The notes under the pieces: model-generated
The model's database searches: none
Seen by the model: the letters and a program-made list of their open reading frames with translations, nothing else
Told to the model about the DNA's origin: nothing
Shown: in pieces, positions 8,265-35,469 of the stretch
Layout of the letters: each line of letters begins with the position of its first letter
How positions within the stretch are numbered: the stretch's first letter is position 1
Assembly (NCBI RefSeq): GCF_003340495.1
Contig: NZ_QASA01000001.1
Location: 2,294,001-2,358,000, forward strand
Reading direction: 5' to 3'
Source of the DNA: Adhaeribacter pallidiroseus
GTDB taxonomy: Bacteria > Bacteroidota > Bacteroidia > Cytophagales > Hymenobacteraceae
Length of the DNA stretch: 64,000 nt
Position numbers and translations under genes: made by a program

Positions 8265-8313
8265 ACCTTGTTAAATTTAGAACTTACTAGGTAAAGAATC
8301 TAATAAGGTTTTT
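8263..8313. terminator. Bidirectional terminator between TIR gene and tape measure
   Basis: AAACCTT (8263-8269) pairs with AAGGTTT (8305-8311), and adjacent TTA/TAA bases extend the stem. T and A runs lie on both sides, so it can serve both converging genes. It starts immediately after the stop of the frameshifted tape-measure tail at 8312. Confidence 0.55.
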
Positions 8314-8403
8314 ATAAATTTGCCTCTTCCATAATAGTTTGAATTTCGTTTAGAGAATCACTAACCTCAGTAGCCACTACGTAGGCTTTTAGCAACGTTT
8401 TTG
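8312..8403 (-). pseudogene. Displaced C-terminus of tape measure protein (-1 frame)
   Basis: After the apparent stop of the tape-measure frame at 8389, the -1 frame continues open and encodes TLLKAYVVATEVSDSLNEIQ followed by TIMEEANL and a stop at 8312. To my eye this is the usual end of Bacteroidota phage tape-measure proteins, and a terminator hairpin follows directly. Inserting one A in the minus-strand A5 run (T5 at 8398-8402) joins it to the main frame. Confidence 0.7.
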
Positions 8404-11298
8404 AGTTTTAATTTCTTCCCTTATGCCTCGCATTTCGGCAACGAGCACGCCAAAAGCATCCGTATTAGGTCCACTCGGGCTAGAAACAGAACCATCGGAA
8501 TACATGCCACCATTAGCCATATGCACCTTCGAGCCGCCTCGATGTAAAGAAGAATCTAGTAGTTTATTGATTAGCGAACCATTGTTGGCTACGGTATTTC
8601 TACTAAGAATCATGTAGGCCTCGCCTTTCTCCCATTCGCCCAGGTGTTCACCGGTCGCACCATCTACCATTTGAATACCACCGTTGGAGTGCAATTGGCC
8701 ACTACCAGCAATACCAGCCGTAGGATTGATGGTGCCGCCATTAGCGAACTTTCTAGTGCCGCGCCAAGTATCTGCTCCGGCAGAAAAAATCCTGTGGCCA
8801 GCGCCTTTAAATAAACCTCCTAGGCTAAAACTAGGTAAAGGAGTTGCGGCAATTTTGGCCGTGGTGAGGGTAGCTAAAATACCGGTGGCAATTTGCAGAG
8901 GCACATTAGGAGCTGCTTTAATTACGCCTAATAATCCTGCCATTATAGAGTTCGCAATGTTGGCCGTTTTTTCATCCTGCGCCGCTTTCTTTTTAAGGTT
9001 GCGGGCCTTAGCATCATAATTAGTTTCTATCGCGTTTTTGCCGTTTTCGTAGCTTTCCTTGGATATTTTACCAGCGTTGTATTCCTGCTGCAACTTTTGC
9101 AAGCGAACCTGTTTATCTTTATCCAGCTTACTCATTTCCCGATCATTGGCAATTTTCTTAAACTCGAATAAAGCTGCGGTGCCTGCTTGGATTTGTTCCA
9201 TCGCAAATACGTTTTTCTCCAGCTCGGATTTTGAACGCTGCTCGGCATACGAGGCGGTTATTTCGGATTTCTTCTGCTCGTACTGGTCATGTATGAGTAA
9301 TTTTTCTTCTTCGGTTAAGGTGGTATTTTGTAATTCTAATTGGGTTTGTACATCTAATCGAGCTTTTTCGGCGGCTTCCATTGCGCCTAAATTGCCGCTT
9401 GACTTGGCTATGTTTACATCCAGTTCCGCGCGACCGTTGGCAATCCTGGCTCTAACTTCCTGTTCCTTTTTAGCCTGTTCTTCAACTTCTTTGAGTTTTT
9501 TGGCATCCGCTTCTTTCTGAACCTGGGCAATATCGGTTACAAGTTTTTTCTCCAGCAATTCCTTGATGGTAGCCTTTTGTTGGGCGGTACCCGTGGCAAG
9601 AGAAATTTCACGGCGGGCCTGCTCCTGAAGTGCCGCAATCTTACGAGCCGTTTCATCAGCGATATTCGCAATTTCTAAATCACGAATGTAGTTTTGCCTC
9701 TCGAGTTCTTCTTTAGCAAGCTGCTCCTGTTTTTTGCGTAATTCCTCGGCAGCTTTCTCTCGTTCCTTACGGAGTTTTTCAGCCGCTTTACTAGCTTCAT
9801 CGTTGGCTTTGGTTTCAGCCGCAAACTTGCGCTTTCCTGATTCCACTACGACAGTTTCCGAGGCGGCTAGTGCTTCTTTCTGGTCCTCGAAAATATTGGT
9901 AAAACCATCCTTGATGTTGCTGAAATTTTTGATGGCATTGGCTTCCATCTTATCGACCAGCGAACTAAAATTTTCCTTCGGGTCAATTTTGAAATCCGCA
10001 CCAAAGAAATTAGCCGCTTTCTTGCCTGCAAAAACCAAGATATTAAATTCATCTACTGCGAGTTGAATAAAGCCAGCTAAAGCCTTTAATGGAGTAAGGG
10101 AAAGATTGAAGGCAAAAGCCAACGTTTTCATAATTACGCTGCCTCGGTTGGCTCCTTCAAAGAAGGGAAATAAGGTAGCAAACAAGCTGCTAAAGCTATC
10201 CCAAAGGGTTTCTATCGTTTCTCCCAAGGATACAAATACCTCCTCCAGTGGCTCGGATTCTTCCAGCATATCGCCGATTAAGGCGGCTCCTTCTTCCAGC
10301 ACCGGTAGCAATCCCTCGCCAATGTTTTCCTGCATCACGCCGATCACATCGGAAACACGTTCAAAGCCATTAGCTCCATCATTAAGAGCCGCTTCCGAGG
10401 AACCTTTAAACTTATCAAAAGCATTAGTGATACCTTCCACCGTTAATTTGCTCTGATCTAAGGTAATACCGGATTTCTGCAAGGCTTTATCTTTGCCAAG
10501 CAATGCGGCGGTAACATCATCCGTAGCACCAGCCAAATCTTTTTTGTTGGCCGTGGCATAATCCAAAAGTTTAGGGGTTAACCTTTCAATTTCAGCGGCG
10601 GTTAAGCCAAAGGTTTTTAGTTGGGCCTGTGCTGCCTGAATGTTTTCGGCGCTAAATCCAAAAGTCATCATTTCCAGCTTGTCGGACTGGTCCAAAAGGC
10701 GCTGCAAACTTCCTTCTGATTCGCCGCCAAGCGTTACTACGGCATTTTTTAGATGGCCTGCGGATTGTTGGGCCTCGTTAAATGCGGCCACTGATTCTTT
10801 CCCGAAATTGAGAATTTCGGTGCCGACCTGCTTAATTCCATCGTACAGCGCCGTACCTGTCAGAACACCAAGGGCACCTTCTTTCACTTTTGACCATAAG
10901 CCGGTAGCTTTTTGCTGCTCGTCGCCAATGCCCCGCATGGCCGCTTTTACTTCTTTGGCCCGGGCTTCCACTTGGGTTAATTGTTTGGACTTATCTATAA
11001 AAGATGCGGTGCCAGGAGTTAAGCCTTTCAACTCGCGGTTTAACTCGCGGCTTTGTTTCTCCAGTTGGTTAAGCGTTAAAGCAGTAGTACCTAAAGAGGT
11101 TCTTAAGGTATCGACTTGCTTATTTACCTGGGTTAGCTCCTGGTTCGCCTTAACAAATTCATCGGTTCCCCGCTTCATATTTTTTAACTCATCGGTAATG
11201 AGTTTTTGCTTGCGGGTTAGATTGTCTAATTCTACTGTTGCTTGCTCGGTTTTTACGTCCAATTCAACTTGAACCTTATCGGTTCTTACTTGTGCCAT
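8389..11298 (-). CDS. Phage tail tape measure protein
   Basis: A 969-residue protein that sets tail length and is ejected with the DNA. The N-terminal 150 residues are coiled coil of the tape-measure type (LTRKQKLITDELKNMKRGTD, LNQLEKQSRELNRELKGLTP). A TMP core with helix-rich segments follows (FGFSAENIQAAQAQLKTFGL; VTAALLGKDKALQKSGITLD). A hydrophobic stretch lies near residues 385-425, then a long charged coiled coil at about 490-740, and a Gly/Ala-rich hydrophobic segment (IMAGLLGVIKAAPNVPLQIA). It is the last gene of the late region. The frame ends prematurely in KTQKRC, with the likely true C-terminus in the -1 frame to 8312. Confidence 0.92.
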   Translation of the reverse strand: MAQVRTDKVQVELDVKTEQATVELDNLTRKQKLITDELKNMKRGTDEFVKANQELTQVNKQVDTLRTSLGTTALTLNQLEKQSRELNRELKGLTPGTASFIDKSKQLTQVEARAKEVKAAMRGIGDEQQKATGLWSKVKEGALGVLTGTALYDGIKQVGTEILNFGKESVAAFNEAQQSAGHLKNAVVTLGGESEGSLQRLLDQSDKLEMMTFGFSAENIQAAQAQLKTFGLTAAEIERLTPKLLDYATANKKDLAGATDDVTAALLGKDKALQKSGITLDQSKLTVEGITNAFDKFKGSSEAALNDGANGFERVSDVIGVMQENIGEGLLPVLEEGAALIGDMLEESEPLEEVFVSLGETIETLWDSFSSLFATLFPFFEGANRGSVIMKTLAFAFNLSLTPLKALAGFIQLAVDEFNILVFAGKKAANFFGADFKIDPKENFSSLVDKMEANAIKNFSNIKDGFTNIFEDQKEALAASETVVVESGKRKFAAETKANDEASKAAEKLRKEREKAAEELRKKQEQLAKEELERQNYIRDLEIANIADETARKIAALQEQARREISLATGTAQQKATIKELLEKKLVTDIAQVQKEADAKKLKEVEEQAKKEQEVRARIANGRAELDVNIAKSSGNLGAMEAAEKARLDVQTQLELQNTTLTEEEKLLIHDQYEQKKSEITASYAEQRSKSELEKNVFAMEQIQAGTAALFEFKKIANDREMSKLDKDKQVRLQKLQQEYNAGKISKESYENGKNAIETNYDAKARNLKKKAAQDEKTANIANSIMAGLLGVIKAAPNVPLQIATGILATLTTAKIAATPLPSFSLGGLFKGAGHRIFSAGADTWRGTRKFANGGTINPTAGIAGSGQLHSNGGIQMVDGATGEHLGEWEKGEAYMILSRNTVANNGSLINKLLDSSLHRGGSKVHMANGGMYSDGSVSSPSGPNTDAFGVLVAEMRGIREEIKTQKRC

Positions 11299-11303
11299 TG
11301 CTA

Positions 11304-11825
11304 TTATTTTTTAAAGTTTGCTGCGATGTGTTTGCCAGATTCGGCCACATAAGCCGTTGCGATTTCATCGCATAGCTTATTGATGGAGGAAAAGAAAGTC
11401 TTGTTAAACCACTTGCCGGGGGTGTGCTGGTAGTTATTTTGCATACTTACCGCAATGCCCCAGGCAATGCGATTGATGGCCTTAGCCTGCGAAATAGGGA
11501 TAGTGCCCCGGTCATAGCCCGGACTGTAATTAAATTTGCCAATACCCACGTTCCGGACAAATTCTTCCAATGCCTCAATAGGTGGGCGCTTCTTAAACCG
11601 TAGGGTATTCATATCCCGCATGCGGCCAGAATCATGAAAAGAAAGCAGCATTTTGGCCGCTACATCACCGGAGCGGCTTTGCACTTGGGCCACTAAAGAA
11701 TTGTAGGTTTCCTTGCTTAAAGTTACCCGCTTATTCTTCATGCTTTGCTTCAAAAGGGAAAGAACCATAAAGCTCCATCCCTCCAGCTTGCCTTCGACTA
11801 GTTTATCTAATTCTTGTTTTGTCAT
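11304..11825 (-). CDS. Phage structural/tail protein, unknown
   Basis: A basic 173-residue protein that I do not recognise. It has helical N- and C-termini and a middle GRMRDMNTLRFKKRPPIEAL segment. It ends 5 bp before the tape-measure start, so the two are co-transcribed, and it heads the last late unit. A CGTCCTACCC element lies 30 nt upstream and a strong terminator lies just before that. A tail-completion or chaperone role is possible from position only. Confidence 0.75.
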   Translation of the reverse strand: MTKQELDKLVEGKLEGWSFMVLSLLKQSMKNKRVTLSKETYNSLVAQVQSRSGDVAAKMLLSFHDSGRMRDMNTLRFKKRPPIEALEEFVRNVGIGKFNYSPGYDRGTIPISQAKAINRIAWGIAVSMQNNYQHTPGKWFNKTFFSSINKLCDEIATAYVAESGKHIAANFKK

Positions 11826-11855
11826 GGTGCCAAGGTACAGGCACCGAAAGGTTAA

Positions 11856-11865
11856 GGGTAGGACG
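11856..11865 (-). promoter_or_regulatory. Late-unit element 7 (CGTCCTACCC)
   Basis: CGTCCTACCC on the minus strand lies 30 nt before the ATG at 11825, immediately after the U-tract of the terminator at 11867-11920. A short hairpin (GGTGCC/GGCACC, 11826-11845) separates it from the gene. It is one of seven related sites. Confidence 0.6.
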
Positions 11866-11866
11866 T

Positions 11867-11920
11867 AAAAAAAAGCCAGCCGGAGTAGGCATAGGCGCTA
11901 CTCCGGCTGGCTTTTTTTTA
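11867..11920. terminator. Strong bidirectional terminator
   Basis: A 15-bp perfect stem (AGCCAGCCGGAGTAG at 11874-11888 with its complement at 11898-11912) is flanked by A8 and T8 runs. It ends the unit containing the HigA-HicAB cassette and isolates the tape-measure unit. Confidence 0.9.
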
Positions 11921-11931
11921 CAAATAAATAT

Positions 11932-12300
11932 TTAAATAGAAAATTTTTGTAGCTTTCGAATAACAGGCTGATTGTTAGTTTGATTTCTTGTCTTCCGAAT
12001 TTCTTTACGTTTTTGAGCCGCTAAGTCTTTTTCCAAAATAGCTTCAATACGCTCCCTTTCGGGTGTTCCTCTTTCGCCGTAGTCCTTAGTAATTAATTCT
12101 TCCAAAGTAAGTCTCCTTTTGGGAGTTTTAATTTCCTCTTCCAGTTCACCTAGAAAATCTTTAACTGGCGTGGTTTCAAGTTTACCTTTTTTAAACAATT
12201 CTACATCACTTAAAACTTTCCGAAAACGCTTAGTCAATTGAGACACTTGCAGTCTATGGCGTAATTTTCTTTGCTTGGCGGTGCTCTTGTTACTAGGCAT
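11932..12300 (-). CDS. Small basic protein of the TA cassette, unknown
   Basis: A 122-residue, highly charged protein (Lys/Arg/Glu-rich, KQRKLRHRL at the start, then LEEEIKTPKRRLTLEELI). It overlaps the HicB-like gene by 8 bp and ends just before the strong terminator, so it is the last gene of the HigA-HicA-HicB operon. I do not recognise it. The charge pattern suggests nucleic-acid binding or a disordered protein. Confidence 0.6.
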   Translation of the reverse strand: MPSNKSTAKQRKLRHRLQVSQLTKRFRKVLSDVELFKKGKLETTPVKDFLGELEEEIKTPKRRLTLEELITKDYGERGTPERERIEAILEKDLAAQKRKEIRKTRNQTNNQPVIRKLQKFSI

Positions 12301-12523
12301 ACATTACTTTTGGTGGTGGAATGGCTCGGCCCAATTCTTGGGCTGTTTCAATCCACTCCTGTATAATAATTTCTACATTAGTTAAAACCTCCACTGAATT
12401 TTTACCATCTGCCATACAGCCAGGTAGTTCCGGCACTTCGGCAATGACCGCATTATCTTCTTCACTCCAATAAAGAAGAACTTCATATCCGGCATGGCTT
12501 GTTATTTTTTGAAGATATTCCAT
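12293..12523 (-). CDS. HicB-family antitoxin
   Basis: A 76-residue protein with the HicB fold signature: a short beta strand YEVLLYWSEEDNAVIAEVPE followed by LPGCMADGKNSVEVLTNVEI. HicB proteins neutralise HicA mRNA interferases and often autoregulate. No C-terminal DNA-binding extension is visible, so regulation probably rests with the HigA-like gene upstream. The start overlaps the HicA stop by one base. Confidence 0.85.
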   Translation of the reverse strand: MEYLQKITSHAGYEVLLYWSEEDNAVIAEVPELPGCMADGKNSVEVLTNVEIIIQEWIETAQELGRAIPPPKVMYA

Positions 12524-12774
12524 TAATCGTTCAATTTATATTTATTGATTATTTCTCTTACTTGTTTAACCTGATAAGGCTTTGCCTTGCTCCCAATGGG
12601 TTGAATATTAATCATTTCAGCTACTCCATCTTTGAAAAAAATTTTATGGCTAGTACCCCTTTGCCTTTCATCAAAACCGAGCCGATGCAAAAGATTTACT
12701 AATTCATCAAATTCAATATTAGCATCCGAACTACCATTTAAGATTTTTTTTATTAGTTTTTCAAACTTGCTCAT
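12523..12774 (-). CDS. HicA-family mRNA interferase toxin
   Basis: An 83-residue HicA-like protein. The diagnostic block G-T-S-H-K-I-F is present (RGTSHKIFFKDG), with the catalytic histidine inside it, followed by PIGSKAKPYQVKQVREII. An N-terminal helix precedes it. It overlaps the HigA-like gene by 14 bp and the HicB-like gene by one base, showing tight translational coupling. The order toxin then antitoxin is normal for hicAB. Confidence 0.85.
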   Translation of the reverse strand: MSKFEKLIKKILNGSSDANIEFDELVNLLHRLGFDERQRGTSHKIFFKDGVAEMINIQPIGSKAKPYQVKQVREIINKYKLND

Positions 12775-13084
12775 TCTTCAAAATATGGGGAGTCTGCAAA
12801 AATTTTTTTCTTTCGCGATAGAGGTCATAGTCTATTTGCAGCCTGAGCCAAAATTCGGCTTCAATGCTTAATTCTTTTTCCAACCGCAAAGCAATATTAG
12901 CCGTGATATTGCGCTTCTTTTTGGTAATCTCCAGCAAATGGGCGGGGTAAACCCCAATTCGCATGGCAAAGTTGGAAATTTTGAACCCTCGGGCATTTAT
13001 TTCATCTTTCAACACTTCGCCGGGATGTACCTCTATATTTAGTTTGATCTCCTGGCCATCTGAACCAATTATCTTGTTTAGCAT
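12761..13084 (-). CDS. HigA-type XRE antitoxin/regulator
   Basis: A 107-residue HTH protein of the HigA (VapI-like) family: HPGEVLKDEINARGFKISNFAMRIGV, then HLLEITKKKRNITANIALRLEKEL and EFWLRLQIDYDL. It is the first gene of the cassette. No HigB-like toxin is adjacent; a HicA/HicB pair follows instead. Two perfect 14-bp palindromes 21 bp apart lie upstream (13127-13161) and are the likely autoregulatory operator. Confidence 0.9.
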   Translation of the reverse strand: MLNKIIGSDGQEIKLNIEVHPGEVLKDEINARGFKISNFAMRIGVYPAHLLEITKKKRNITANIALRLEKELSIEAEFWLRLQIDYDLYRERKKFLQTPHILKNEQV

Positions 13085-13126
13085 ACCTTTTTTTTAAATT
13101 ATCATACCCTAAGATACGTATTTTAT

Positions 13127-13161
13127 TGTAATTGATTACACAAATAGTGTAATTAATTACA
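13127..13161. promoter_or_regulatory. Tandem palindromic operator of HigA-HicAB cassette
   Basis: TGTAATTGATTACA (13127-13140) and TGTAATTAATTACA (13148-13161) are near-identical perfect palindromes with centres 21 bp apart, two helical turns. They lie about 45-75 bp upstream of the HigA-like start, as expected for a dimeric HTH repressor. Confidence 0.75.
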
Positions 13162-13179
13162 ATAATTCTGTACTGGATT

Positions 13180-13977: not shown

Positions 13978-14209
13978 TTTTGGCTGGTTCTAAAGGTGGT
14001 GGGGGTGGATTGGAATGGCCGGGAAAAGTTACCGTAATCGGAGCCTTAAAGCAGGCCAGTACCGCTACCCACAACACGAATAATACCTGGCTACCGACCA
14101 GCAACCAAACCCAAAACGGAGCCTGGCTAACGGGGTAACGTTCCGCTAAAATTTTAATTAACAGTAGGCAAAACTGGCTCACTAGCAGCCGGGTTGACGT
14201 TAAGCGCAT
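13970..14209 (-). CDS. Small membrane protein, lysis-associated candidate
   Basis: A 79-residue protein with hydrophobic segments near residues 9-20 and 31-54 (FWVWLLVGSQVLFVLWVAVL) and a proline-rich C-terminus (SNPPPPPLEP). It overlaps the holin-like gene by 56 bp in another frame. This compact overlap and topology suggest a second lysis component, but the role is inferred from position. The start is uncertain; a GTG at 14182 is an alternative. Confidence 0.55.
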   Translation of the reverse strand: MRLTSTRLLVSQFCLLLIKILAERYPVSQAPFWVWLLVGSQVLFVLWVAVLACFKAPITVTFPGHSNPPPPPLEPAKNA

Positions 14210-15625: not shown

Positions 15626-15626
15626 C

Positions 15627-17233: not shown

Positions 17234-17272
17234 TGTGTTTTTTTAGCAATGTTACTGGAAACTGGAGCTAGA

Positions 17273-17282
17273 GGGTAGGACG
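17273..17282 (-). promoter_or_regulatory. Late-unit element 6 (CGTCCTACCC)
   Basis: An exact copy of the ten-base element, 39 nt upstream of the ATG at 17233. A TAGC/GCTA inverted repeat lies between element and gene. Confidence 0.6.
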
Positions 17283-17405
17283 TAAGCTGCCGAAAAAGTT
17301 TTGCGGTCAAATTTTTTGTAATTGCCTTAAAATCTGCTACTTGTTTCGAAAAAGAGCTTGAAAAATGAGGTATAACGCACTGTTGACTGCGCGCCCTTTA
17401 GCGGT

Positions 17406-17419
17406 TTGGAAATTTCCAA
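17406..17419. promoter_or_regulatory. 14-bp palindrome TTGGAAATTTCCAA
   Basis: A perfect palindrome. A 12-bp version (TGGAAATTTCCA) lies at 17499-17510 and the 10-bp core at 30735-30744, all in late-region gaps. Likely a dimeric protein site. Confidence 0.5.
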
Positions 17420-17526
17420 TCAAAAAAATCAGGGATATATGAAAGGCCCTCCCGCCGCCACCAAATAGCCCTTTGCAGCTTACTAAGGCACTTTCCATTG
17501 GAAATTTCCATTATAAAAGGAGCAAC

Positions 17527-19570: not shown

Positions 19571-19612
19571 ATAAAAAGCTTTGCTACGAAGGTGCAGCAA
19601 AGCTTGAGACAA

Positions 19613-19622
19613 GGGTAGGACG
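19613..19622 (-). promoter_or_regulatory. Late-unit element 5 (CGTCCTACCC) with 5' hairpin
   Basis: The exact ten-base element lies 42 nt before ATG 19570. The leader carries a 10-bp hairpin (AAGCTTTGCT/AGCAAAGCTT, 19576-19605) whose loop shares GCTACRAAGGTG with the hairpin before the endolysin gene. Confidence 0.6.
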
Positions 19623-20824: not shown

Positions 20825-20881
20825 TTTTGGCGGTTTGATTGCTATACAGACAAATCTACCAGAAATTACGTGCAACGCAAC

Positions 20882-20923: not shown

Positions 20924-20933
20924 AAGTAGGGCG
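20924..20933 (-). promoter_or_regulatory. Late-unit element 4 (CGCCCTACTT variant)
   Basis: CGCCCTACTT on the minus strand is identical to the copy at 35460-35469. It lies 99 nt before ATG 20824, with a terminator between. Confidence 0.5.
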
Positions 20934-21036: not shown

Positions 21037-21708
21037 TTAAACTACGGCCGGAGCTTCCGATTCCAGTTCTCCATCGTAAAACAACGGCGGGTGGTTGGTA
21101 CCCACGGTAAACTTATAATCGCCACCGTTTTTATCATTGTATTTTTTGCCGGATTTGTAGTCAATATCAAATTTCATCGGGCGCTTTTGGGAACCACCGA
21201 TCATTACTTTATCGTCCGGCGTTTTTACCGCCACGACAAATTTGCCATTCAAGGCGTTGGCCACTACTTCCGCGATTTCTTCGTTCATCCGTGGAATGTA
21301 CACGCCGGTTTCCTGGCTGAAAGTTTGGCTGCCGGCTTCTCCTTCGGATTTGAATGTTATCTCGCCGGTATCTTCGGCAAAGTCCCACTTAGCCCATTTC
21401 TTGCCGGTTTTAAGCACTATATCGCCATCCAGAACTACTTTAGAGCCTGCTTTAAAGCCAGGCCAGGTTAAAATATCGCGTTTCAAAACAACGTACAGTT
21501 CGTACAAGCCGCCGGTGTTAGCGCCGCACTCATCTTCTTTGATGGATGCTACCGAAATACAAGTAGCCAGAACCATTGAAGTAGAAGAAGCTAAGCCGAG
21601 GGCTTCGCTCACGCCTAAATGGGTGAGGCCGTGGGTTTCGGTGAAAAATACCAAGCCTAATACAGTTAAGGCTACGGTGAACAAGGTTTTAAATATTTTA
21701 GGTATCAT
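21037..21708 (-). CDS. Tail-tube-like structural protein with hydrophobic N-terminus
   Basis: A 223-residue protein. Residues from about 60 to the end (CGANTGGLYELYVV; DGDIVLKTGKKWAKWDFAED; FTVGTNHPPLFYDGE) align throughout with the 208-residue product of 29353-29979, so the two are paralogues. The beta-rich content and position after the capsid gene suggest a major tail tube role. The first 57 residues are odd: they include a membrane-like segment (FKTLFTVALTVLGLVFF) and a second hydrophobic stretch absent from the paralogue. The start could be internal, or an upstream reading frame may be fused. Confidence 0.7.
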   Translation of the reverse strand: MIPKIFKTLFTVALTVLGLVFFTETHGLTHLGVSEALGLASSTSMVLATCISVASIKEDECGANTGGLYELYVVLKRDILTWPGFKAGSKVVLDGDIVLKTGKKWAKWDFAEDTGEITFKSEGEAGSQTFSQETGVYIPRMNEEIAEVVANALNGKFVVAVKTPDDKVMIGGSQKRPMKFDIDYKSGKKYNDKNGGDYKFTVGTNHPPLFYDGELESEAPAVV

Positions 21709-24182: not shown

Positions 24183-24257
24183 TTTCTTTGCTACTTGGCC
24201 GAAAGGCACTTGCCATTCGTTAAAAAGTAAGCAAAGATGGTAGGCGGGAATGCCCGA

Positions 24258-24267
24258 AAGTAGGACG
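24258..24267 (-). promoter_or_regulatory. Late-unit element 3 (CGTCCTACTT)
   Basis: A one- or two-base variant of the late element, 75 nt before ATG 24182, just beyond the stop of the upstream amidase-like gene. A CGGG/CCCG hairpin follows it. Confidence 0.55.
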
Positions 24268-24273
24268 GGAAAG

Positions 24274-24744
24274 TTAAGCTGGTTTCGCGGTTAAATAGGC
24301 TTCTATCGACTGGGGGGTTGCTTCCCACCAATTCGGGATTTGGTAGACCAAGGCAATAAATTCAAAGCAATAAAGGCGTTTGGCTCCGGCTCCGGCTCGC
24401 CGGCCAAACCACTTGTTAAATAATTTGCGCCAAACGTGATTGACGCAACTCCAGTAATCGTAAGGCAAACCTTCGTAGGCGAGTACCTGGGCTAAATCAC
24501 AGGATCCACTTAACAATTTTACTTCCCGCGGGAGTTGCTTACACCAGTCCGCGTAAGGTGTGCGCTGGAGGGTGGTGCCGCCTTTGGCTTCTACGATAAA
24601 TACTTGATCAGCAATCACGGCCACAAAAACGGCGTGGTTCCAGTTAGAACCAAGTACTTGCCGAATGGCAAATGCTTCCAGAGAGTACTTGGTATGGCAC
24701 AGCAATACGTTACCGGTTTTCAGACTACTACTATTCGGGTACAT
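24274..24744 (-). CDS. Permuted NlpC/P60-like (YiiX-type) cysteine hydrolase
   Basis: A 156-residue protein with the look of the YiiX/permuted papain-like family. The N-terminal GNVLLCHTK strand is followed by the histidine block WNHAVFVAVI, and a nucleophile cysteine lies late in AKRLYCFEFIALVY. Such enzymes cleave amide bonds in peptidoglycan or lipids. It overlaps the 236-residue gene by 25 bp and ends the tail-fibre/lysis unit. A role in cell-wall penetration at the tail tip is plausible. Confidence 0.6.
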   Translation of the reverse strand: MYPNSSSLKTGNVLLCHTKYSLEAFAIRQVLGSNWNHAVFVAVIADQVFIVEAKGGTTLQRTPYADWCKQLPREVKLLSGSCDLAQVLAYEGLPYDYWSCVNHVWRKLFNKWFGRRAGAGAKRLYCFEFIALVYQIPNWWEATPQSIEAYLTAKPA

Positions 24745-27821: not shown

Positions 27822-29353
27822 AATTTCGGATTGATAAAGACTTCGAAGCGTTTGGCTTCAATCATGGAAATTTCCACATCGTGGCGCACTCCCGGTATGA
27901 AAGTAAAGCCGGTCTGATCGACAATCACGGCTTGATAGGTCAAACCATTGAGCGTAACATTTAAGGTGCCATTGGTCGCTAAAAAGCCGGTTAAGGTGTC
28001 CGTGAGGTTTTTAGAATCCAGAATAAGGCGCAAGGAGGGGCCAATGCGAATATTATTCAGAACACTAGCGCCCGAACCTAGATCGGTGGCTACGCCAACG
28101 GCTGAAGCGCGTTTAGTGGTATAATAACTCCCATCAATCGAAGGCAAGGTACTGGTACCTAAATCCCGGTAACTGGTGTAATCATTGATGGTTTTTAACA
28201 AGGCCACATCACTCTCCAGGGTAGTGGCGCGGGTGCCTAAACTGGTTAGTTGCGTGTCCTGGGTCGTATTTTTGGCAATGGCCGCTTCCGCTTTGGCATC
28301 TACTCCCGCGATGGAAGTTGCCAAGGGGTTCAGGTCGTTTTTTAAAGCGTAGGGCGCTAAATTCGGCGCGGCTGGTAAATCCGTTTTTAAAAGGTAGTAC
28401 TGCTTGATCGCGCCGGCAGTCAATCCATCTTTGGTAGAATCACTCGGCGCACTTAACAGCTTGAACGGGTCGTTGTTGTAAACTACGGCCTGGATGCTGC
28501 TTAATTCAATATAGGTGAGGTGCAAGAAATTTTCCCCAACTACCGGAAAAATATAGTTCTTATCGTCGTCTACCGGTTCGCCAAAAATAATTGACCAGAT
28601 ATTACTGGTTAAATTTACCGCTATCGAGCAAACCTGTTTTTTACCGGTCGCTGGTAATAAAATAGGTTCGGAAACAGCCGCCGCCGTTTTTTCTACTTCA
28701 TTCACGGCGTAAGTCGCCTGCCCGATAGAAAGAATATTACCGGCAATTACTGGCGTACTCGGCTTTACTTTCCATTCTACGCCCTTGGGAATCGGGGGCG
28801 CAGGTGTGCCCAATAATACGCCGTTTACGGTAATAGAGCCAGCCACTACCAAGTTGCCACCACCATCTAAATAAGCTAATTCGCGCACGAAATCACCGGA
28901 GCGCCAAACAAAGCGTTCGCCGGTCACATTGCGAAATTCCAGATCACCGGTATTGCGCAAATAAATTTCGGCCCGTTGCTCCTGGTTTACTTTGCCGGTA
29001 ATGGTATCATTCCATAATTGAAAATGCGGCTGGTCAATGCTCGAAGTTGCCAAACGAATCTTAATCATGCCGGTAAACAATGCCCCGGTTAAACTGGCTT
29101 TGGCCTGGGCCACCCGATCGAGCGCCAAGCCGAAAGTAGTTTTGCCGGTTGCCAGCAATCCTTTCCAAAATCCGGTGGTGTTGCTGGAGTCTACCGGCAA
29201 ATATTCAAATTCGGGCAGCTCGTCTTTGGCAAGGAAAGTTTCGTTGGCATCATCTACAAAATCACGCAGCGCCTTTTCATTAATTAAACCTTCCTCGTTA
29301 TCGGCAAAAACGTAGGTGTATTCTTGTTCTAAATTGTCTTTTAAAGCACTCAT
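27818..29353 (-). CDS. Tail fibre protein
   Basis: A 511-residue protein with a fibre-like plan. The N-terminal region (to about 160) has a beta-prism-like repeat (DQPHFQLWNDTITGKVNQEQ; IYLRNTGDLEFRNVTGERF) typical of trimeric phage fibres. A middle domain is followed by a short heptad coiled coil near residues 350-395 (AGVDAKAEAAIAKNTTQDTQ; LTSLGTRATTLESDVALLK) and a C-terminal beta domain. It overlaps the upstream paralogue of the tail tube by one base and the downstream spike gene by four. Confidence 0.75.
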   Translation of the reverse strand: MSALKDNLEQEYTYVFADNEEGLINEKALRDFVDDANETFLAKDELPEFEYLPVDSSNTTGFWKGLLATGKTTFGLALDRVAQAKASLTGALFTGMIKIRLATSSIDQPHFQLWNDTITGKVNQEQRAEIYLRNTGDLEFRNVTGERFVWRSGDFVRELAYLDGGGNLVVAGSITVNGVLLGTPAPPIPKGVEWKVKPSTPVIAGNILSIGQATYAVNEVEKTAAAVSEPILLPATGKKQVCSIAVNLTSNIWSIIFGEPVDDDKNYIFPVVGENFLHLTYIELSSIQAVVYNNDPFKLLSAPSDSTKDGLTAGAIKQYYLLKTDLPAAPNLAPYALKNDLNPLATSIAGVDAKAEAAIAKNTTQDTQLTSLGTRATTLESDVALLKTINDYTSYRDLGTSTLPSIDGSYYTTKRASAVGVATDLGSGASVLNNIRIGPSLRLILDSKNLTDTLTGFLATNGTLNVTLNGLTYQAVIVDQTGFTFIPGVRHDVEISMIEAKRFEVFINPKL

Positions 29354-29979
29354 TATGATAAAATTCTAAATCCGTAAGAGAAACCTGATTTAATTTGGAA
29401 GGTGCCGCCTGGCTGTACGGTGGCTAAAATGCGGCCTTTCCCATCGACAATAGTTACCGGTGCGCCGGAAGTGTTAGGCTCCTGGGCACCTACTTCCATT
29501 CCGTAGTAGAAAAATGCTTTTTGCAGGGCTTCGCCCGAAAACAAGAAAGTAGTGCCGCTTTTATTAGCGCCACTTTTACCGGTTTCCAGGCTTGATGAAA
29601 TAGTAAGCGGAAATTCCGGAGATCCCACTACTTTCCAGTTGCCGTTGTTGTCGCAGTAAACCACGAGGCAGAATTTTATCTGGCCGAGGGCATTGGTCCA
29701 TTGGGCCATTTGCGGGGTGTCATTCGGCATGAAAACCTCCAGCTTGGTTTTATAATAGGGGCCGTGGTCATTTTCGGCGCTATCTTCTTTAAACTCGGCC
29801 GCATCTTCCGGAAATTCTAACTGGCTCATGCTGGTTCCTTCTTCCAGCACAATGTCCGCGCCAAGCAAATACTCCTGGTGCTCGGGCACCGCGAGTACTT
29901 GATCAGCCGGAATGACAAAAAGTTGGCTGAGCCCGCCCAAATGCGAACCGCACAACTCGTAAGAGAGATTCGGTAGCAT
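29353..29979 (-). CDS. Tail-tube-like paralogue in adsorption module
   Basis: A 208-residue protein whose body (CGSHLGGLSQLFVI; GADIVLEEGTSMSQLEFPED; PLTISSSLETGKSG; AFFYYGME) aligns by eye with residues 60-223 of the 21037-21708 product. It lacks that protein's hydrophobic N-terminus. It overlaps the endolysin gene by one base. Two tube-like paralogues in separate units suggest one forms the tail tube and the other a tip or terminator ring, but the assignment is open. Confidence 0.65.
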   Translation of the reverse strand: MLPNLSYELCGSHLGGLSQLFVIPADQVLAVPEHQEYLLGADIVLEEGTSMSQLEFPEDAAEFKEDSAENDHGPYYKTKLEVFMPNDTPQMAQWTNALGQIKFCLVVYCDNNGNWKVVGSPEFPLTISSSLETGKSGANKSGTTFLFSGEALQKAFFYYGMEVGAQEPNTSGAPVTIVDGKGRILATVQPGGTFQIKSGFSYGFRILS

Positions 29980-30572
29980 TAGGCTTCTAATTTAAATTTG
30001 GCGTAGGCTTTGGCTAATTTGATGTGGTATTGGTGCTTGGCGTAAGAAACGCCGTTGTACATGCGGGCTACATCATCCCAATCGGCCATCGTGATCGCGG
30101 CCATTAAGCCGGGAACCAGCTTGCAATACCGGAACATGGCCACGAGCTGGTTATATTCGCTCTCGTACATGGCATTGACAAAATCCTGTAAAGAGGCGTA
30201 CCCTAGCTTTTGCCAGTGATAACCCATTACTTGACCCATGCCCCAACTCGCCGATGCTAAGGCCGCTTTGCTATCCAGTTGAATGGCCTGAGCCATCCGG
30301 AACCATTCCTTTTGACTGCGAACGGTAGCGGTTGCGCCGGTTGAATAACCACCGGCTAATTTGTTGGAAATTACCGGATGGGTAGTCGAGTACATGCCGT
30401 TGGTAAAGTTGTGAAACTTGTGGCGCTCAAATAAAATTTTCGGGCGGCCCGAGCCATCCGGAACGTAGCCACTGCCCGCGCTTTCTACTTCCACCATGGC
30501 CCGTACTCCGGCAAGTGGTAAATTAAATTGTTTGGCTAAGGTGCGGAGTTGGTCAAGAGTAATTGTTTTCAT
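29979..30572 (-). CDS. Endolysin: N-acetylmuramidase
   Basis: A 197-residue lysin of the N-acetylmuramidase (DUF3380) family that cleaves peptidoglycan glycan chains. The catalytic glutamate lies in AMVEVESAGSGYV, followed by the family block GRPKILFERHKFH and the WGMGQVMGYHWQKLGY and MYNGVSYAKHQYH regions. No signal peptide or binding domain is visible, so it depends on a holin. It heads the second late unit, 46 nt after a CGTCCTACCC element, with a hairpin in the leader (30582-30604). Confidence 0.88.
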   Translation of the reverse strand: MKTITLDQLRTLAKQFNLPLAGVRAMVEVESAGSGYVPDGSGRPKILFERHKFHNFTNGMYSTTHPVISNKLAGGYSTGATATVRSQKEWFRMAQAIQLDSKAALASASWGMGQVMGYHWQKLGYASLQDFVNAMYESEYNQLVAMFRYCKLVPGLMAAITMADWDDVARMYNGVSYAKHQYHIKLAKAYAKFKLEA

Positions 30573-30618
30573 GTGCTTCTAGGATTATGCTACAAAGGTG
30601 TAGCATCCCAGAGGCGAA

Positions 30619-30628
30619 GGGTAGGACG
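30619..30628 (-). promoter_or_regulatory. Late-unit element 2 (CGTCCTACCC)
   Basis: An exact copy of the element, 46 nt before the endolysin ATG. Upstream is a TGCCCGATA/TATCGGGCA hairpin; downstream is a GATGCTACA/TGTAGCAT hairpin. Confidence 0.6.
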
Positions 30629-30696
30629 AGCCAAAGCCATACATGCCCGATAGACAATTCATATCGGGCACATATTCTTTCAGTCTGTATATGTCG

Positions 30697-30723
30697 GTAC
30701 AAGCTAGTACAAGCTAGTACAAG
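30697..30723 (+). repeat. Tandem repeat GTACAAGCTA x 2.7
   Basis: Two full copies of the ten-base unit at 30697-30706 and 30707-30716 and a partial third to 30723. The period is about one helical turn. Confidence 0.8.
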
Positions 30724-30856
30724 TGGAGAGGGCTGGAAATTTCCGGTATTATCGGAAATGTGCAATAAATCTGAAAAATGTTAAATTTTGGCACAAACCG
30801 GGAAATTCCTGGGACAAACCGGGAAATTTAATTTTAAAATTTTTGATTTTTTTTCT

Positions 30857-32584
30857 TTAAACTTTCCAGAGTTCGACCGTGGCTTTCTTCCTGATCGGGA
30901 GCACTACATTAATTTTTCGAACCAGGTAGCGCAAGCCGTTTATATCTTTTTTCCGGTTCATGTTCAGGTTCGCTAAATCCACCGCATCGAGCGCCACCAA
31001 GCCGGTAACTACGCGGCTCTGGCTTTTAAAATTGAGCCAGCTTTCGTGAAAGTTTTTACCCAGGCCACTAGCACCCCCAACGGCTAAAGAATAATTGCCC
31101 AGGGTAACATTTTGCAGGTTGGTCGTATCTATTGATACCAGCGGATAATTAAATTGGTAGCTGCTCGGGTTGGCTTCGTTGGGTTGCATGCCGCGCCAGA
31201 ATCCCAGGCGCAAAGTTTGGCTTTTTTGATTGTTGCCACTTTCCGGAGAAAAGCCGGGTTCATCTATCACCGGTACTTTTACTTTTACCACGTTTCCTTC
31301 GCCCTGGTTAACGGTTTCCATTAAATAGAGCGTATGGCCTACCGTAATTTCTTCGCCGCCTCCCGCCACTTTTAAAGGCGAATAATTGCGCGAATAAAAT
31401 TGCCAGCCGTTGCCGTACTGCCAGTATTCATTTTTATCAATCACTAGCCGGATTTGCTGCGGCTCTGCCGGCATGGGTAGTTGCAGCATGGTAGCTACGG
31501 GTTCTTTGACTAACTCGGCCGGCAGGTCTTTTACAAACTTAGCTGTTTCCGAATCGGCGGCTTCCAGATTATCTTTGAGGGTATAACCCGCTACATCGTT
31601 TATCTGAATTTCAAAATTGGGATCCACTTTAGTACTCCAGTCGTCATACTCGGTACTTTCGATCACATCATCCAATTTTTGAATAATAAGGGTATTGTTT
31701 AAAGTGGCCTGAATGCTTAAACTGAAACTAGCCGCAATCTTTTTTAAGAAATCAATTAAAGTTAAATCCGGTAAGGCTTGCCCGATTTTAAATTTATTGC
31801 GGAATCCGTTGGCTCCTTTGGCTCCTAAGAGCTCGTACCGGGAGAAATAATCATCTAGTAAATTATTGCTGATAATAACCAGTTTCGAGAGTTCTTCATT
31901 AAAAAAAGCGTCTACTACCGGAACGCCGTTTTCGCGGAATGCTTCTAAGATCACGTACCGCACATAAGGCATGGGGCTTAAACTGGTATTGTTAAAACTA
32001 GCCTGAAAGTCGGTGCCAAATAAGTTCTGCTGAAAGCCAGAGCCGCGCTGATAATCATAATCAAAGTGGTTTACCCAATACTGGTAAGGGGTGCCGCTTT
32101 GGGAGCCAATGGCGCTGTTATTGAGGTAAGGGGCGAACACGTAATCAAACTGGTTGGCATTGTTTACTACCTGGTTCATGTGCGCCGTTATTTCCTGGGT
32201 AGTGGTTCCCATTACTCGTTCGCCGCCAAAGGAAAATTCGCTGAGTTTTTTCTTCAAAAAGTTAGCGAGGGCACTTAATCCTACGGTAGCATCGGCTTGA
32301 ATTTTTCCATTAACAATTTTGCGCAATTTGAGAGTGCCACGCAATAATTCCCCATCCGATTCTATTTCAATCGGGTATTCGCCGCGTACATCGTAAGTGC
32401 TATCCAGCACGTCCGGAAAGTTGAAAGTAATCCGGTTGGGTTCCAATGGAATCGTAAAAGGTAGCGAGTAGCTACCTTTTATTACTTCCGAATTAGTTTC
32501 AAATATGGGATTATTAATTTCGAGGGCAATGCTGGTGCCTGGGAGCAAATGAATCTCCCGGGAGCCGATGTACAGTCTTAACAT
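30857..32584 (-). CDS. Tail tip/baseplate hub-like protein
   Basis: A 575-residue protein that starts with a beta-rich domain (RLYIGSREIHLLPGTSIALE; YSLPFTIPLEPNRITFNFPD), like distal tail or hub proteins. A middle domain follows (IDFLKKIAASFSLSIQATLN), then a C-terminal beta domain ending in RYLVRKINVVLPIRKKATVE. It ends the first late unit and follows the 593-residue protein. Function is inferred from size, fold impression and neighbours. Confidence 0.65.
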   Translation of the reverse strand: MLRLYIGSREIHLLPGTSIALEINNPIFETNSEVIKGSYSLPFTIPLEPNRITFNFPDVLDSTYDVRGEYPIEIESDGELLRGTLKLRKIVNGKIQADATVGLSALANFLKKKLSEFSFGGERVMGTTTQEITAHMNQVVNNANQFDYVFAPYLNNSAIGSQSGTPYQYWVNHFDYDYQRGSGFQQNLFGTDFQASFNNTSLSPMPYVRYVILEAFRENGVPVVDAFFNEELSKLVIISNNLLDDYFSRYELLGAKGANGFRNKFKIGQALPDLTLIDFLKKIAASFSLSIQATLNNTLIIQKLDDVIESTEYDDWSTKVDPNFEIQINDVAGYTLKDNLEAADSETAKFVKDLPAELVKEPVATMLQLPMPAEPQQIRLVIDKNEYWQYGNGWQFYSRNYSPLKVAGGGEEITVGHTLYLMETVNQGEGNVVKVKVPVIDEPGFSPESGNNQKSQTLRLGFWRGMQPNEANPSSYQFNYPLVSIDTTNLQNVTLGNYSLAVGGASGLGKNFHESWLNFKSQSRVVTGLVALDAVDLANLNMNRKKDINGLRYLVRKINVVLPIRKKATVELWKV

Positions 32585-32608
32585 ATCTAGCGAGTGCCTT
32601 TAGGCCGT

Positions 32609-34390
32609 TTAGTTTAAATGCGAATAGGTGAAAGGCGTATAAGCATAATCATACTCGAAAAAATAACCGGTGGGCCTGCGGCTATCCGGTTCAAAAGTGT
32701 AGCTTCTTTTCTGCAAAATGATGGGTAGCAAGTCCTCGCCTTTTATTTCGTAACGCCGTTTGGAAAAAACAAAGCCTTGCAGGTATTCTTGTTCTTCCGG
32801 AGTATGGAGCCCGCTAGATTGCTTAATTCTTCTTTGCATATCCTGCGCAAAAACCGATTGCAAATCATTGCCCGAAATTGAAATTTCGTCTTTTCCATCG
32901 ATGGCCAATTCCTGCGGGCCAGTGGTGCGCAAAGTTTCCCAAACCCCAAAAGCATTTTCGTACAAGAAAAATTTCTCGTAACGCCGGAAGCTTCGGTCAA
33001 TTTTAAAAGTTCGGGTTTCGCTGATCGCTTCCTGGTTGCTGTTTAAAAGCCGAATTTCAATGCGCTTCACGTGCGCCGGTACTGCTTCTAGCTTTACCGG
33101 AATACTGATTAAAGTATTAATAGGCGAGCTGGTATCTAAAGCAAAATTTTCCTTGTAAGTAGTAGTTACTACGCCAATATACTTGCGCTCGATTATAAAA
33201 TCGTTGGTGTTACTTTGGTTTAACCAATACAAAAATTCCGGCTGGTCCGGGCCAATGGTTTTTGTTTTCGGCAGCCAAGTGAGGAAAGATTTTTTTTCCT
33301 GTAAATAGCCGAAAAAATTAAGGCGCGTCCAATCCTGCAAAGGCAAACCACCTTTGACTACCGTATAAACCGGCGACTTGGTATATGCACCTATTACTTT
33401 GGTTACGGGGTCAACAAAGGCGGTTTGGAAGGAATAATTTAAGATTCCTTGTTTCACGCGTCTGGTAGCAATAGAAGCCGCCTGGAGGTAAGGTAAATCC
33501 AGAGCTTTGTTCAAAAAGCTATGCAGCAATAAGTTTAAATCAAAATTGGCCGAATCATTGGTTAAAAACCTTCGGCGCGCAATTACCGGCTGGAAGTCGC
33601 CTTTGTAGTGTTCACTTTCTACCGATAATTCCAATACTACTTCACTGTTTTCGACTATCTCGGGTGCTGCGCCAATTACTTCTAATATGGGATTTAAGGA
33701 GAAATATAAGCCCGTACTCGTAACCGGAACAACCGGTGGTTCCTCCGTTTCTTCCTCCGGAGGCGCTACGCCAAGGGTTTTATTGCCGGAGCCGATGCAA
33801 TCATGGTTCGCTTTATGGCGAACATAAATTGTATAGGCGCGCGCTTCCAAGCCGGCAAAAGTGGGCGAATCCTGCCAGTTATTAATAGAGGTAAAAGGAA
33901 TCACGCAAGCAAACTCGTGCGGCTCGGAACTAGTAGTGGTGATCGTGATAGAACCATCCGCGTAATTAGTGGCGCTGCATGGAACGGTGGTAGCCGTAAC
34001 CGAACCAGGCGACAGATCACAGACTGGACCAACGCCCCCGGTAGTCGTAAAATAGTCAAAGGGTCCTTCCCGGTAAATGCCCAGGGTAAAGTCCTGCGCC
34101 ATGACAATCGGCTGAAATTCGTACTCGGCCGCGGGATTGGCCGGGAACTGAAAAACGCCTTGAAATTGTACGCTATTGGCGCCGAAATTACAAGTCGTAT
34201 AATCCGATTGCGACTGCGGCGGGTATACCCACGGCAACGTCCAATCCAAGGTATTTTTGACTCTTACTCGGAACGCCACATAAAAAGGGCAATGAGTTCC
34301 GGTGCCATCGTAAGTAAAGGAGCCTTTCAGCCTTATTTGGGTTAAGGTTTTCTGATCGGAACCAAGATTAGAAACGGTTGCTGCGGCCAT
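32609..34390 (-). CDS. Large tail-tip protein with Ig-like N-terminal region
   Basis: A 593-residue protein. The N-terminal 210 residues look like two to three beta-sandwich domains (KGSFTYDGTGTHCPFYVAF; CSATNYADGSITITTT; ARAYTIYVRHKANHDCIG), separated by an acidic, proline-rich linker (PPEEETEEPPVVPV) from a C-terminal body with ELSVESEHYKGDFQPVIARR. The middle domain resembles surface repeats of Bacteroidota adhesins. It probably belongs to the tail tip. It shares one base with the upstream gene. Confidence 0.65.
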   Translation of the reverse strand: MAAATVSNLGSDQKTLTQIRLKGSFTYDGTGTHCPFYVAFRVRVKNTLDWTLPWVYPPQSQSDYTTCNFGANSVQFQGVFQFPANPAAEYEFQPIVMAQDFTLGIYREGPFDYFTTTGGVGPVCDLSPGSVTATTVPCSATNYADGSITITTTSSEPHEFACVIPFTSINNWQDSPTFAGLEARAYTIYVRHKANHDCIGSGNKTLGVAPPEEETEEPPVVPVTSTGLYFSLNPILEVIGAAPEIVENSEVVLELSVESEHYKGDFQPVIARRRFLTNDSANFDLNLLLHSFLNKALDLPYLQAASIATRRVKQGILNYSFQTAFVDPVTKVIGAYTKSPVYTVVKGGLPLQDWTRLNFFGYLQEKKSFLTWLPKTKTIGPDQPEFLYWLNQSNTNDFIIERKYIGVVTTTYKENFALDTSSPINTLISIPVKLEAVPAHVKRIEIRLLNSNQEAISETRTFKIDRSFRRYEKFFLYENAFGVWETLRTTGPQELAIDGKDEISISGNDLQSVFAQDMQRRIKQSSGLHTPEEQEYLQGFVFSKRRYEIKGEDLLPIILQKRSYTFEPDSRRPTGYFFEYDYAYTPFTYSHLN

Positions 34391-34707
34391 TATACAGTTG
34401 TCCAGTTAGCAGGGTTATAACAAATATTGATGGGCTTATCTAGGGAAAATTCCATGCGCCAGCCGTAATCCGAATCAATAAACAAGGTACTCACGGGGTC
34501 TAATTGCACCTGGCTCAAATTAATGAAAAAACGATGTTCCTTGCGGTCTTTGCGCATTCTGGATAAGATATCCAAAGCGATATTCTCGGTTTTTTCCCAA
34601 ATTTCATCTAACTCGGTTTCCGAGGCATCCGGCGCGTTCCACAGAATAATTAAGGCTCCGTAGCGATTGCCGGTGATCTGGTTGGCTTCGTTGTCCGTAA
34701 ACTTCAT
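34390..34707 (-). CDS. Tail completion-type protein, C-terminal part of split gene
   Basis: About 105 residues from ATG 34707 (MKFTDNEANQITGNRYGALI) to NICYNPANWTTV. The DSDYGWRMEFSLDKPINICY end is, as I recall, typical of a roughly 160-residue family in Bacteroidota prophages. The missing N-terminal part is encoded in the +1-shifted frame immediately upstream (34704-34871). The two ORFs overlap as ATGA, so they are either translationally coupled or one gene broken at the C5 run 34708-34712. An ATG at 34731 extends the frame by 8 residues. Confidence 0.65.
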   Translation of the reverse strand: MKFTDNEANQITGNRYGALIILWNAPDASETELDEIWEKTENIALDILSRMRKDRKEHRFFINLSQVQLDPVSTLFIDSDYGWRMEFSLDKPINICYNPANWTTV

Positions 34708-34871
34708 TTGGGGGTTTCCAGCCACAAACAAGGGTAGGATAAATCACTGCGGGTTTTACCCATAATATCGGCGGCGGTGCCGTGGGTAAAATCCTTTAAT
34801 TGAAAATGCTCTTGCGAGAGCTTCCGGAAGTAATCGACGTACTCGGCAAATCGGTTTGTTACCATGGACAT
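34704..34871 (-). CDS. N-terminal part of split tail completion-type gene
   Basis: A 55-residue ORF (MSMVTNRFAEYVDYFRKLSQ ... LSYPCLWLETPK) that stops by overlapping the ATG of the next ORF. Adding one C to the run 34708-34712 makes a continuous reading LETPQMKFTDNE and a protein of about 160 residues. It is too short to be expected as an independent domain. Confidence 0.6.
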   Translation of the reverse strand: MSMVTNRFAEYVDYFRKLSQEHFQLKDFTHGTAADIMGKTRSDLSYPCLWLETPK

Positions 34872-34932
34872 TTAAGAAATAAAGAGAATGAGGGAAAAGG
34901 TCGATTTTTAAGAATTAAATCGACAATAGGAA

Positions 34933-35442
34933 TTAGGCGTAAGCCATACCGGTAAATCCGGCTGGCTGATGGGCAACCATTTGATTTACTTTGTAGATGC
35001 GGTCTTTATAATCTCTCCAGCATTTACGGGCTACTTCCAGATCGTAGCTTTCCGTGTCAATCTGGTACAAATTCATAAACATCGTGATCGCGGCCAGCTC
35101 GTTGCCGGTGCGGGCCACTTGGCCTTTCACAAAAAATAAAAGTTGCTGCTGGAAGTATTTTTCAAAGAAATCAGACAACGCTTTCATGTTGTCCTCGGTC
35201 ATGGCGTAGTGCTTTAACGCCTTAGGGAGTTGTAAGGAAATTTCCGCTACGTTGCCGCTTTTTTCTTTTTTGGTTTTTAATTGACGGTAAGGCAGTTTAT
35301 CTACGGCCATTACTATTGTTTTTCCAAGAAAAGTATTCTGGTGTATTCTAATAAAATTCTCTCCTGGTAATCCGAACTCTTGTAGTAAAAACTCCTTTAC
35401 GTGTTTGCGTACGGGTATTGAGATTAAAGTAGACTTAGACAT
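34933..35442 (-). CDS. First gene of late region, unknown phage protein
   Basis: A 169-residue protein (LISIPVRKHVKEFLLQEFGL; KTKKEKSGNVAEISLQLPKA; FFEKYFQQQLLFFVKGQVAR) rich in helices. It looks like a widely kept Bacteroidota phage protein, but I cannot name a function. The KHVKEFLLQEFG start and KCWRDYKDRIYK end suggest a small DNA-binding or regulatory protein rather than a virion protein. As the first gene of the late region it is a candidate late regulator. Confidence 0.65.
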   Translation of the reverse strand: MSKSTLISIPVRKHVKEFLLQEFGLPGENFIRIHQNTFLGKTIVMAVDKLPYRQLKTKKEKSGNVAEISLQLPKALKHYAMTEDNMKALSDFFEKYFQQQLLFFVKGQVARTGNELAAITMFMNLYQIDTESYDLEVARKCWRDYKDRIYKVNQMVAHQPAGFTGMAYA

Positions 35443-35459
35443 TAGTAGTTTAGTAGTAG

Positions 35460-35469
35460 AAGTAGGGCG
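35460..35469 (-). promoter_or_regulatory. Late-unit element 1 (CGCCCTACTT variant)
   Basis: Identical to the copy at 20924-20933 and one base from the 24258 copy. It lies 17 nt before the ATG at 35442, next to a GGCGATA/TATCGCC hairpin. Confidence 0.45.

Follow-up and report, generated by a model that had tools for sequence, protein, structure and literature searches.

A recurrent GTCCT element before the late genes of an Adhaeribacter pallidiroseus prophage and of other Bacteroidota phages is a probable half of a bipartite late promoter

We investigated a short element that recurs before the late genes of a prophage of Adhaeribacter pallidiroseus, in a window of 64,000 nucleotides (nt) of contig NZ_QASA01000001.1 (positions 2,294,001 to 2,358,000). 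The prophage carries its tape measure, terminase, portal-like, head protease and muramidase genes on the minus strand and a tyrosine integrase gene on the plus strand (47854-49248). The element is very probably the upstream half of a bipartite late promoter, in which CGTCCTA (core GTCCT) is followed, after 21 nt, by a degenerate version of TAnnTTTG, the -7 element of Bacteroidota housekeeping promoters. It would thus belong to a class of late promoters of a known general kind, made of a phage box and a host downstream element. From sequence alone we infer that it functions as a promoter, that it acts late and that it is read by a phage-encoded factor; the lead candidate for this factor is an uncharacterised protein family, here called fam 0.

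The preliminary description of this window listed seven copies of the pattern CGYCCTACYY. We found exactly seven, all on the minus strand and at the positions listed, each immediately 5' of a minus-strand open reading frame (ORF); four of them are exact copies of CGTCCTACCC. Over 100 shuffles of the window the mean count was 0.62 and the maximum 3, and none reached seven. Across the whole genome (6.43 Mb) the pattern occurs 28 times compared to 50 for the reversed control pattern, so the seven copies in 24 kb of prophage are a local cluster and not a host feature.

The copies had been treated as equals and as lacking any host-type TAnnTTTG nearby, and both points have to be revised. Five of the seven carry a -7-like box exactly 20 nt past CGTCCTAC, and these five full copies consist of CGTCCTA and the box at constant spacing. 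They stand before muramidase, head protease, terminase, portal-like and tail genes (Table 1). The two CGCCCTACTT copies, at 35460 and 20924, have no such box and show TGTCTAAG and CCGTAAGG, respectively, at its position, which rules out the equality of the seven. A pattern permitting CGCCCTAC finds only three such places in six relatives of the prophage, all in one genome (G011) and all within ORFs. The copy at 20924 may be decayed, replaced or a product of chance; 3' of it lies a hairpin followed by a T-run, beyond which there is a plausible promoter of host type, TTG-N19-TAGATTTG (TAGATTTG at 20851-20858). A promoter role for the CGCCCTACTT copy at 35460 is unsupported.

Related prophages were found through their large terminase and portal-like proteins, giving 20 assembled regions (the window plus relatives); these phages share kinship and their sites are not independent. 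The element is kept at orthologous gene starts. CGTCCTA occurs 81 times on the late-gene (coding) strand of the 20 regions compared to twice on the other strand, with at least one coding-strand copy in 19 regions and none in G085. The pattern ....TT[TG]G follows CGTCCTA at a spacing of 21 nt in 34 of the 81 cases, of 20 nt in 11 and of 22 nt in 6, compared to no more than two at any other spacing from 0 to 44; behind a few of the 81 the second box is missing. Sites recur before fam 0, before its downstream neighbour, before the head protease gene, at the small-terminase position (counterparts of the window site at 19616..19622 were found in 12 other regions), and before the orthologues of 20875, 17233 and 11825. 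Full-length relatives have three to seven putative promoters across the late region. In 15 whole genomes the pattern CGTCCTA-N25-TTNG matches 66 places, 43 of which are inside prophage regions or immediately next to a fam 0 gene, and its reversed control matches 160 places genome-wide; in the genome of the window itself, four of the five places are the prophage promoters proposed here. A single place in G207 (loci L057 and L109) and 23 viral stretches (L060-L082, two of them with two matches) were set aside.

We then turned to phages chosen by fam 0 and not by the motif. This separate set comprises stretches of 25 to 40 kb that surround the fam 0 gene of 20 new genomes, taken from 45 genomes with fam 0, mostly by score order (G494, G489, G394 and G262 were passed over); fam 0 is present in all 20 by construction. 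In these distant phages a strict -7-like box stands 22 nt behind 43 of 321 coding-strand GTCCT words, compared to 0 of 459 on the opposite strand, and behind no more than two coding-strand words at each of 29 other spacings. Under a slightly relaxed definition of the box, 13 of the 20 phages have at least two N22 sites, six have one and one has none. A k-mer search, given only the -7 box, looked for 7-mers that are enriched upstream of a -7-like box at one constant distance. GTCCT words came out top or tied-top in nine of the 20 phages (G411, G259, G409, G256, G359, G314, G407, G046 and G165). The result was clear in G046 (six copies) and G165 (five copies) and near background elsewhere, with three copies in five others and two in G411 and G409, the level of shuffles that were made from one region only. 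The opposite strand gave up to three copies, in G256 and G359.

GTCCT-N22-box sites also occur in named phages: five in Cellulophaga phage Ingeline_1, five in Bacteroides phage BT-TP2, four in Porphyromonas phage phage017a and, by rule, two in Polaribacter phage Leef_1, with none on the opposite strand of any of the four. In phage017a the k-mer search did not return GTCCT, and the four sites were located with the motif already known. In Leef_1 six GTCCTTTT sites can be seen by eye, most of which the strict box misses. In Flavobacterium phage laban6-1, five sites of this kind carry TGTCACA (a count of 5, where shuffles reach 4 at most). Four copies of CATGTCTTAAA can be seen by eye in front of late genes of Flavobacterium phage 6H, and the k-mer count of 3 falls within the shuffles. 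On this weaker evidence the laban6-1 and 6H boxes seem to be variants of the element. Four control Bacteroidota phages (B40-8, 11b, FCL-2 and the first 50 kb of crAss001) have no forward-strand site and no fam 0; three of the four have one reverse-strand site each.

According to PMC6847099, the -7 element of Flavobacterium johnsoniae spans -12 to -5 and transcription begins 4-5 nt after it. This geometry would place CGTCCTA at about -40 to -34, near the position expected for the host -33 element. No TTTG of the -33 type is present at that position in the logo, which has CGTCCTA instead. The downstream box, over 81 sites, has A at position 2 (76%), T at positions 5 (86%), 6 (96%) and 7 (43%) and G at position 8 (61%), and several sites carry the full host TAnnTTTG (TAAGTTTG, TACATTTG, TACTTTTG and TAGCTTTG). 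With a loosely defined box, an ATG stands exactly 4 nt past it at 22 of the 68 sites from Hymenobacteraceae, many of which are orthologous, and at 17 of the 101 from the distant phages, forming a sharp peak; in the window this is the case at 11825. Since the peak falls on the predicted +1, many late mRNAs should be leaderless. By comparison, 87% of the predicted F. johnsoniae transcripts have leaders longer than 10 nt (PMC6847099).

Terminators had been described as usually lying just upstream of the copies. In a fold test that demanded a T-run behind the stem, a terminator-like hairpin was present within 50 nt upstream of only two of the five full copies, at 19613 and at 11856 (immediately upstream of the latter, -28.5 kcal/mol); the copy at 30619 has a hairpin and no T-run. 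In the two larger collections of sites, 13 of 67 and 26 of 101 have such a hairpin in the 50 nt upstream; random positions, which fall mostly in coding sequence, give means of 1.5 and 2.5. In 13 of 13 regions, a terminator-like hairpin at the small-terminase position encloses the -7 box, with -17.6 to -34.3 kcal/mol per individually folded piece. When the same 13 regions are folded from the predicted +1 onward the left arm is missing and the values are 0 to -0.2 kcal/mol. This hairpin could be formed by RNA coming from upstream and not by RNA beginning at the predicted start, and we infer that it terminates transcripts arriving from upstream and that the promoter is nested within it. Many sites have no hairpin, which rules out a DNA hairpin as the recognised feature.

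Fam 0, the candidate factor, co-occurs with the element. Its gene lies at the border of early and late genes. Just upstream, on the opposite strand, is a serine resolvase gene (35749-36321, plus strand); seven relatives have a resolvase-like gene at the corresponding place but on the late strand. Fam 0 is present in the window and in all eight relatives whose early region is covered, and in seven of these eight it is preceded by its own copy of the element. A fam 0 profile finds 45 of 390 genomes of the order, and a phylum-wide search with a diverse alignment (A4) finds 5 of 395. All six named phages with the element or a variant have fam 0, compared to none of the four controls; 6H was located through the fam 0 of laban6-1, hence its own fam 0 is no test. 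A broader profile detects fam 0 in all six with first-pass E-values from 5.9e-18 to 7.9e-4, and later E-values for these six proteins come from a profile that contains them. We also searched the six named phages with nine families for which no structural role is known. Four of the six were matched by the fam 0 profile of Hymenobacteraceae (E 1.2e-9 to 0.0028), three by the integrase, one by the neighbouring fam 2 and none by the remaining six families. Five of the six named fam 0 proteins are annotated as "hypothetical protein" and that of BT-TP2 as "transcriptional regulator".

Structural models of fam 0 had mean pLDDT values of 78.4 (the model used), 66.3, 65.6, 63.1 and 49.3. The model used has a confident C-terminal helical part, in which the basic residues R139, K140 and R143 are conserved among close relatives. 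Its only Foldseek match at E <= 0.001 among viral models is a protein of Polaribacter phage Leef_1 (6.8e-7). A search of the phage collection with the fam 0 protein of the window gave no match, and the best hit among solved structures by sequence, at E 0.022, was an unrelated chain. The base after GTCCT (labelled by hand) tracks the fam 0 tree, with 6 changes compared to a shuffled mean of 13.1 and none of 200 shuffles as low. Within one host genus (g5, including Hymenobacter genomes), the box is CGTCCTA in one phage lineage and of the TGTCCTTT type in another (G046 and G165), which argues for a phage-encoded reader. We put the identification of fam 0 as the late-promoter factor at about an even chance. 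The wider proposal, which we hold tentatively and at slightly below an even chance, is that fam 0 is a Bacteroidota-wide family of late-transcription factors, each with its own GTCCT-like box variant at -40 to -34 and working with the housekeeping sigma, and that its phages, which infect Cytophagales, Flavobacteriales and Bacteroidales, share a multi-unit, often leaderless late programme.

Several observations weigh against these interpretations. The fam 0 gene of the window has no recognisable element of its own, and G085 has fam 0 without CGTCCTA; a possible substitute in G085 is TTAGGCC, which precedes three -7-like boxes at a constant distance. The distant phages with a single N22 site or none leave other late units unexplained. 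The -7-like boxes are degenerate, and their first base is C in 56% and T in 22%. Family searches with fam 0 returned no match at E <= 0.01, and Foldseek against solved structures returned none at E <= 0.001, with no DNA-binding fold recognised. Moreover, the shared phylogeny of box and fam 0 could reflect whole-phage inheritance alone.

The lack of a recognised DNA-binding fold in fam 0 is also what would be seen if an alternative sigma factor, of phage or host, read both boxes itself, without an activator and the housekeeping sigma. Constant spacing between two boxes is what a sigma needs, and the downstream box differs from TAnnTTTG in a consistent manner (the C at position 1 already mentioned, and C at position 4 in 72%). 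Several sites nevertheless match the host TAnnTTTG completely, as would be predicted if the housekeeping sigma were used, and among the subset of window proteins that was scanned the only sigma-like match was a weak, below-cut-off one to Sigma70_r4_2, in the resolvase. We therefore regard an alternative sigma as unlikely. That a host regulator, for example a stress activator, binds the box and makes the late genes follow a host signal is improbable: the GTCCT core is similar across phages of three host orders (which we take to be Cytophagales, Flavobacteriales and Bacteroidales), as a conserved host protein would give, but four of the five places of the bipartite pattern in the window's own genome belong to this prophage, and box variants differ among phages of one host genus.

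The preliminary description offered a phage-specific late promoter, an antitermination site or an RNA-processing site. For five of the seven copies the promoter is the best reading, given the spacing, the conservation at orthologous genes, the strand bias and the start codons; it does not extend to the CGCCCTACTT copies. An element acting in RNA, for antitermination or processing of a long late transcript, fits worse and is quite improbable. It would account for the hairpins that surround the second box at the terminase site and, in the window, at some further sites, and cleavage could also yield leaderless ends. However, the second box resembles the -7 consensus of a sigma and occurs at hairpin-free sites, terminator-like hairpins end just upstream of many elements, so that RNA from upstream would lack them, and the start codon lies where a promoter would start transcription. 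The start-codon placement and the hairpin evidence led us to reject it as first choice. Chance repetition or a compositional artefact may explain the two CGCCCTACTT copies, but for the element as a whole its probability is negligible in view of the shuffles, the genome count, the strand bias, the spacing and the separate phage set.

With the element taken as a bipartite promoter, a phage-encoded protein would bind the CGTCCTA box during lytic growth and recruit host RNA polymerase to, or hold it on, a -7 box that in most cases is too weak to work by itself. The lysis, head protease, terminase, portal and tail units would be switched on separately but together, some of them starting just behind the terminator of the preceding unit. 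The start codon would often be at +1, giving a leaderless mRNA.

Mycobacteriophages have short asymmetric repeats, the start-associated sequences SAS/ESAS, in front of many genes of a single phage, in some cases close to inverted repeats. These sit a few nt before start codons and are not known to have a promoter box at a fixed distance. Our element resembles them as a short repeat before genes and differs in that a -7 box sets its position. Late activators of the Q or RinA/ArpU types, encoded close to where the late regions of other temperate phages begin, act at one late promoter or by antitermination. Like them, fam 0 is encoded by a small gene at the early/late border and would turn on late genes; in contrast, here three to seven putative promoters are spread over the late region of each full-length relative, and no family match ties fam 0 to these types. 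In T4 middle promoters, which work by sigma appropriation, the MotA box supplants the host upstream element and the host downstream element is kept (PMC6755090). The arrangement proposed here is similar, as far as sequence can tell, with a phage box in place of the upstream element. In T4, the MotA box has its centre near -30 and is paired with an excellent -10 match (PMC6755090), whereas our box lies at about -40 to -34 before a poor -7 box. The genes served are also different, being structural and lysis genes here, and fam 0, the only protein compared, has no similarity to MotA or any other solved protein. Finally, the sigma ABfr housekeeping promoters of Bacteroidota (-33 TTTG and -7 TAnnTTTG; PMC6847099) seem to have the same type of -7 element, and the start codons peak at the distance expected from them. 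They differ from our element in having TTTG where it has CGTCCTA at an invariant position, and its -7 box is weaker.

Table 1. Copies of the element and associated features in the window
Feature	Position	Strand	-7-like box	Predicted start	Remark
CGTCCTA, 30572 unit	30622..30628	-	CACCTTTG, 30593-30600	~30588	muramidase gene first
CGTCCTA, head-protease unit	24261..24267	-	CATCTTTG, 24232-24239	~24227	phrog_53 head maturation protease
CGTCCTA, 19570 gene and large terminase	19616..19622	-	CACCTTCG, 19587-19594	~19582	19570 gene at small-terminase position
CGTCCTA, 17233 unit	17276..17282	-	TAACATTG, 17247-17254	~17242	next gene portal-like
CGTCCTA, 11825 and tape-measure gene	11859..11865	-	TACCTTGG, 11830-11837	11825	predicted start is the A of ATG
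CGCCCTACTT	20924..20933	-	none		at the place of the relatives' late promoter
CGCCCTACTT	35460..35469	-	none		17 nt before the 35442 start
Hairpin and T-run before the 19570 gene	19576..19605	-			encloses the -7-like box; from folding
fam 0 gene, 169 aa	34933..35442	-			lead candidate late-promoter factor, from co-occurrence with the element

Several other features were noted. Just past the tape-measure gene is a gene for a TIR-domain protein (7350-8264, plus strand), which adjoins a tRNA-Asp gene (7165-7239) that could be the integration site. A block of low G+C content (~33%) lies between the early genes and the integrase (42155-46379, plus strand) and includes a DUF4435/AAA protein (43464-45077) and a below-cut-off match to nucleoside deoxyribosyltransferase (45453-46379); it is possibly a defence or cargo insert. 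Between 13180 and 11825, small minus-strand genes (11932-13084), including one for an HTH antitoxin-like protein (phrog_1381), have no counterpart listed in the relatives and are possible toxin-antitoxin cargo. The late proteins encoded at 21037-21708 and 29353-29979 (minus strand) match each other's orthologues in relatives at 22-29% identity and are probably paralogues. A gene of the Peptidase C92 (YaeF/YiiX-type amidase) family stands amid the late genes (24274-24744, minus strand). The IMG/VR contig IMGVR_UViG_2832857875_000001 (41,899 bases; loci L039 and L111) has identical large terminase and fam 0 proteins and appears to be the same prophage or a near copy of it.

We found no prior description of the element by title or abstract in the open-access literature, a search that did not cover preprints and most subscription papers, nor an open-access account of late-gene switching in this group of Bacteroidota phages. 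The analysis offers a precise candidate promoter consensus, which extends to phages whose bacterial hosts live in soil, sea, gut and mouth, with transcription starts predicted to the base and a candidate regulator named. Its prediction of leaderless late mRNAs concerns a phylum in which most transcripts predicted for F. johnsoniae have leaders of more than 10 nt (PMC6847099). The consensus would make it easier to recognise and parse prophage late regions by sequence alone, and the promoters, being under phage control, could serve as tools in Bacteroidota genetics. If the proposal for the fam 0 family is true, a large group of mostly temperate phages shares one late-gene programme.

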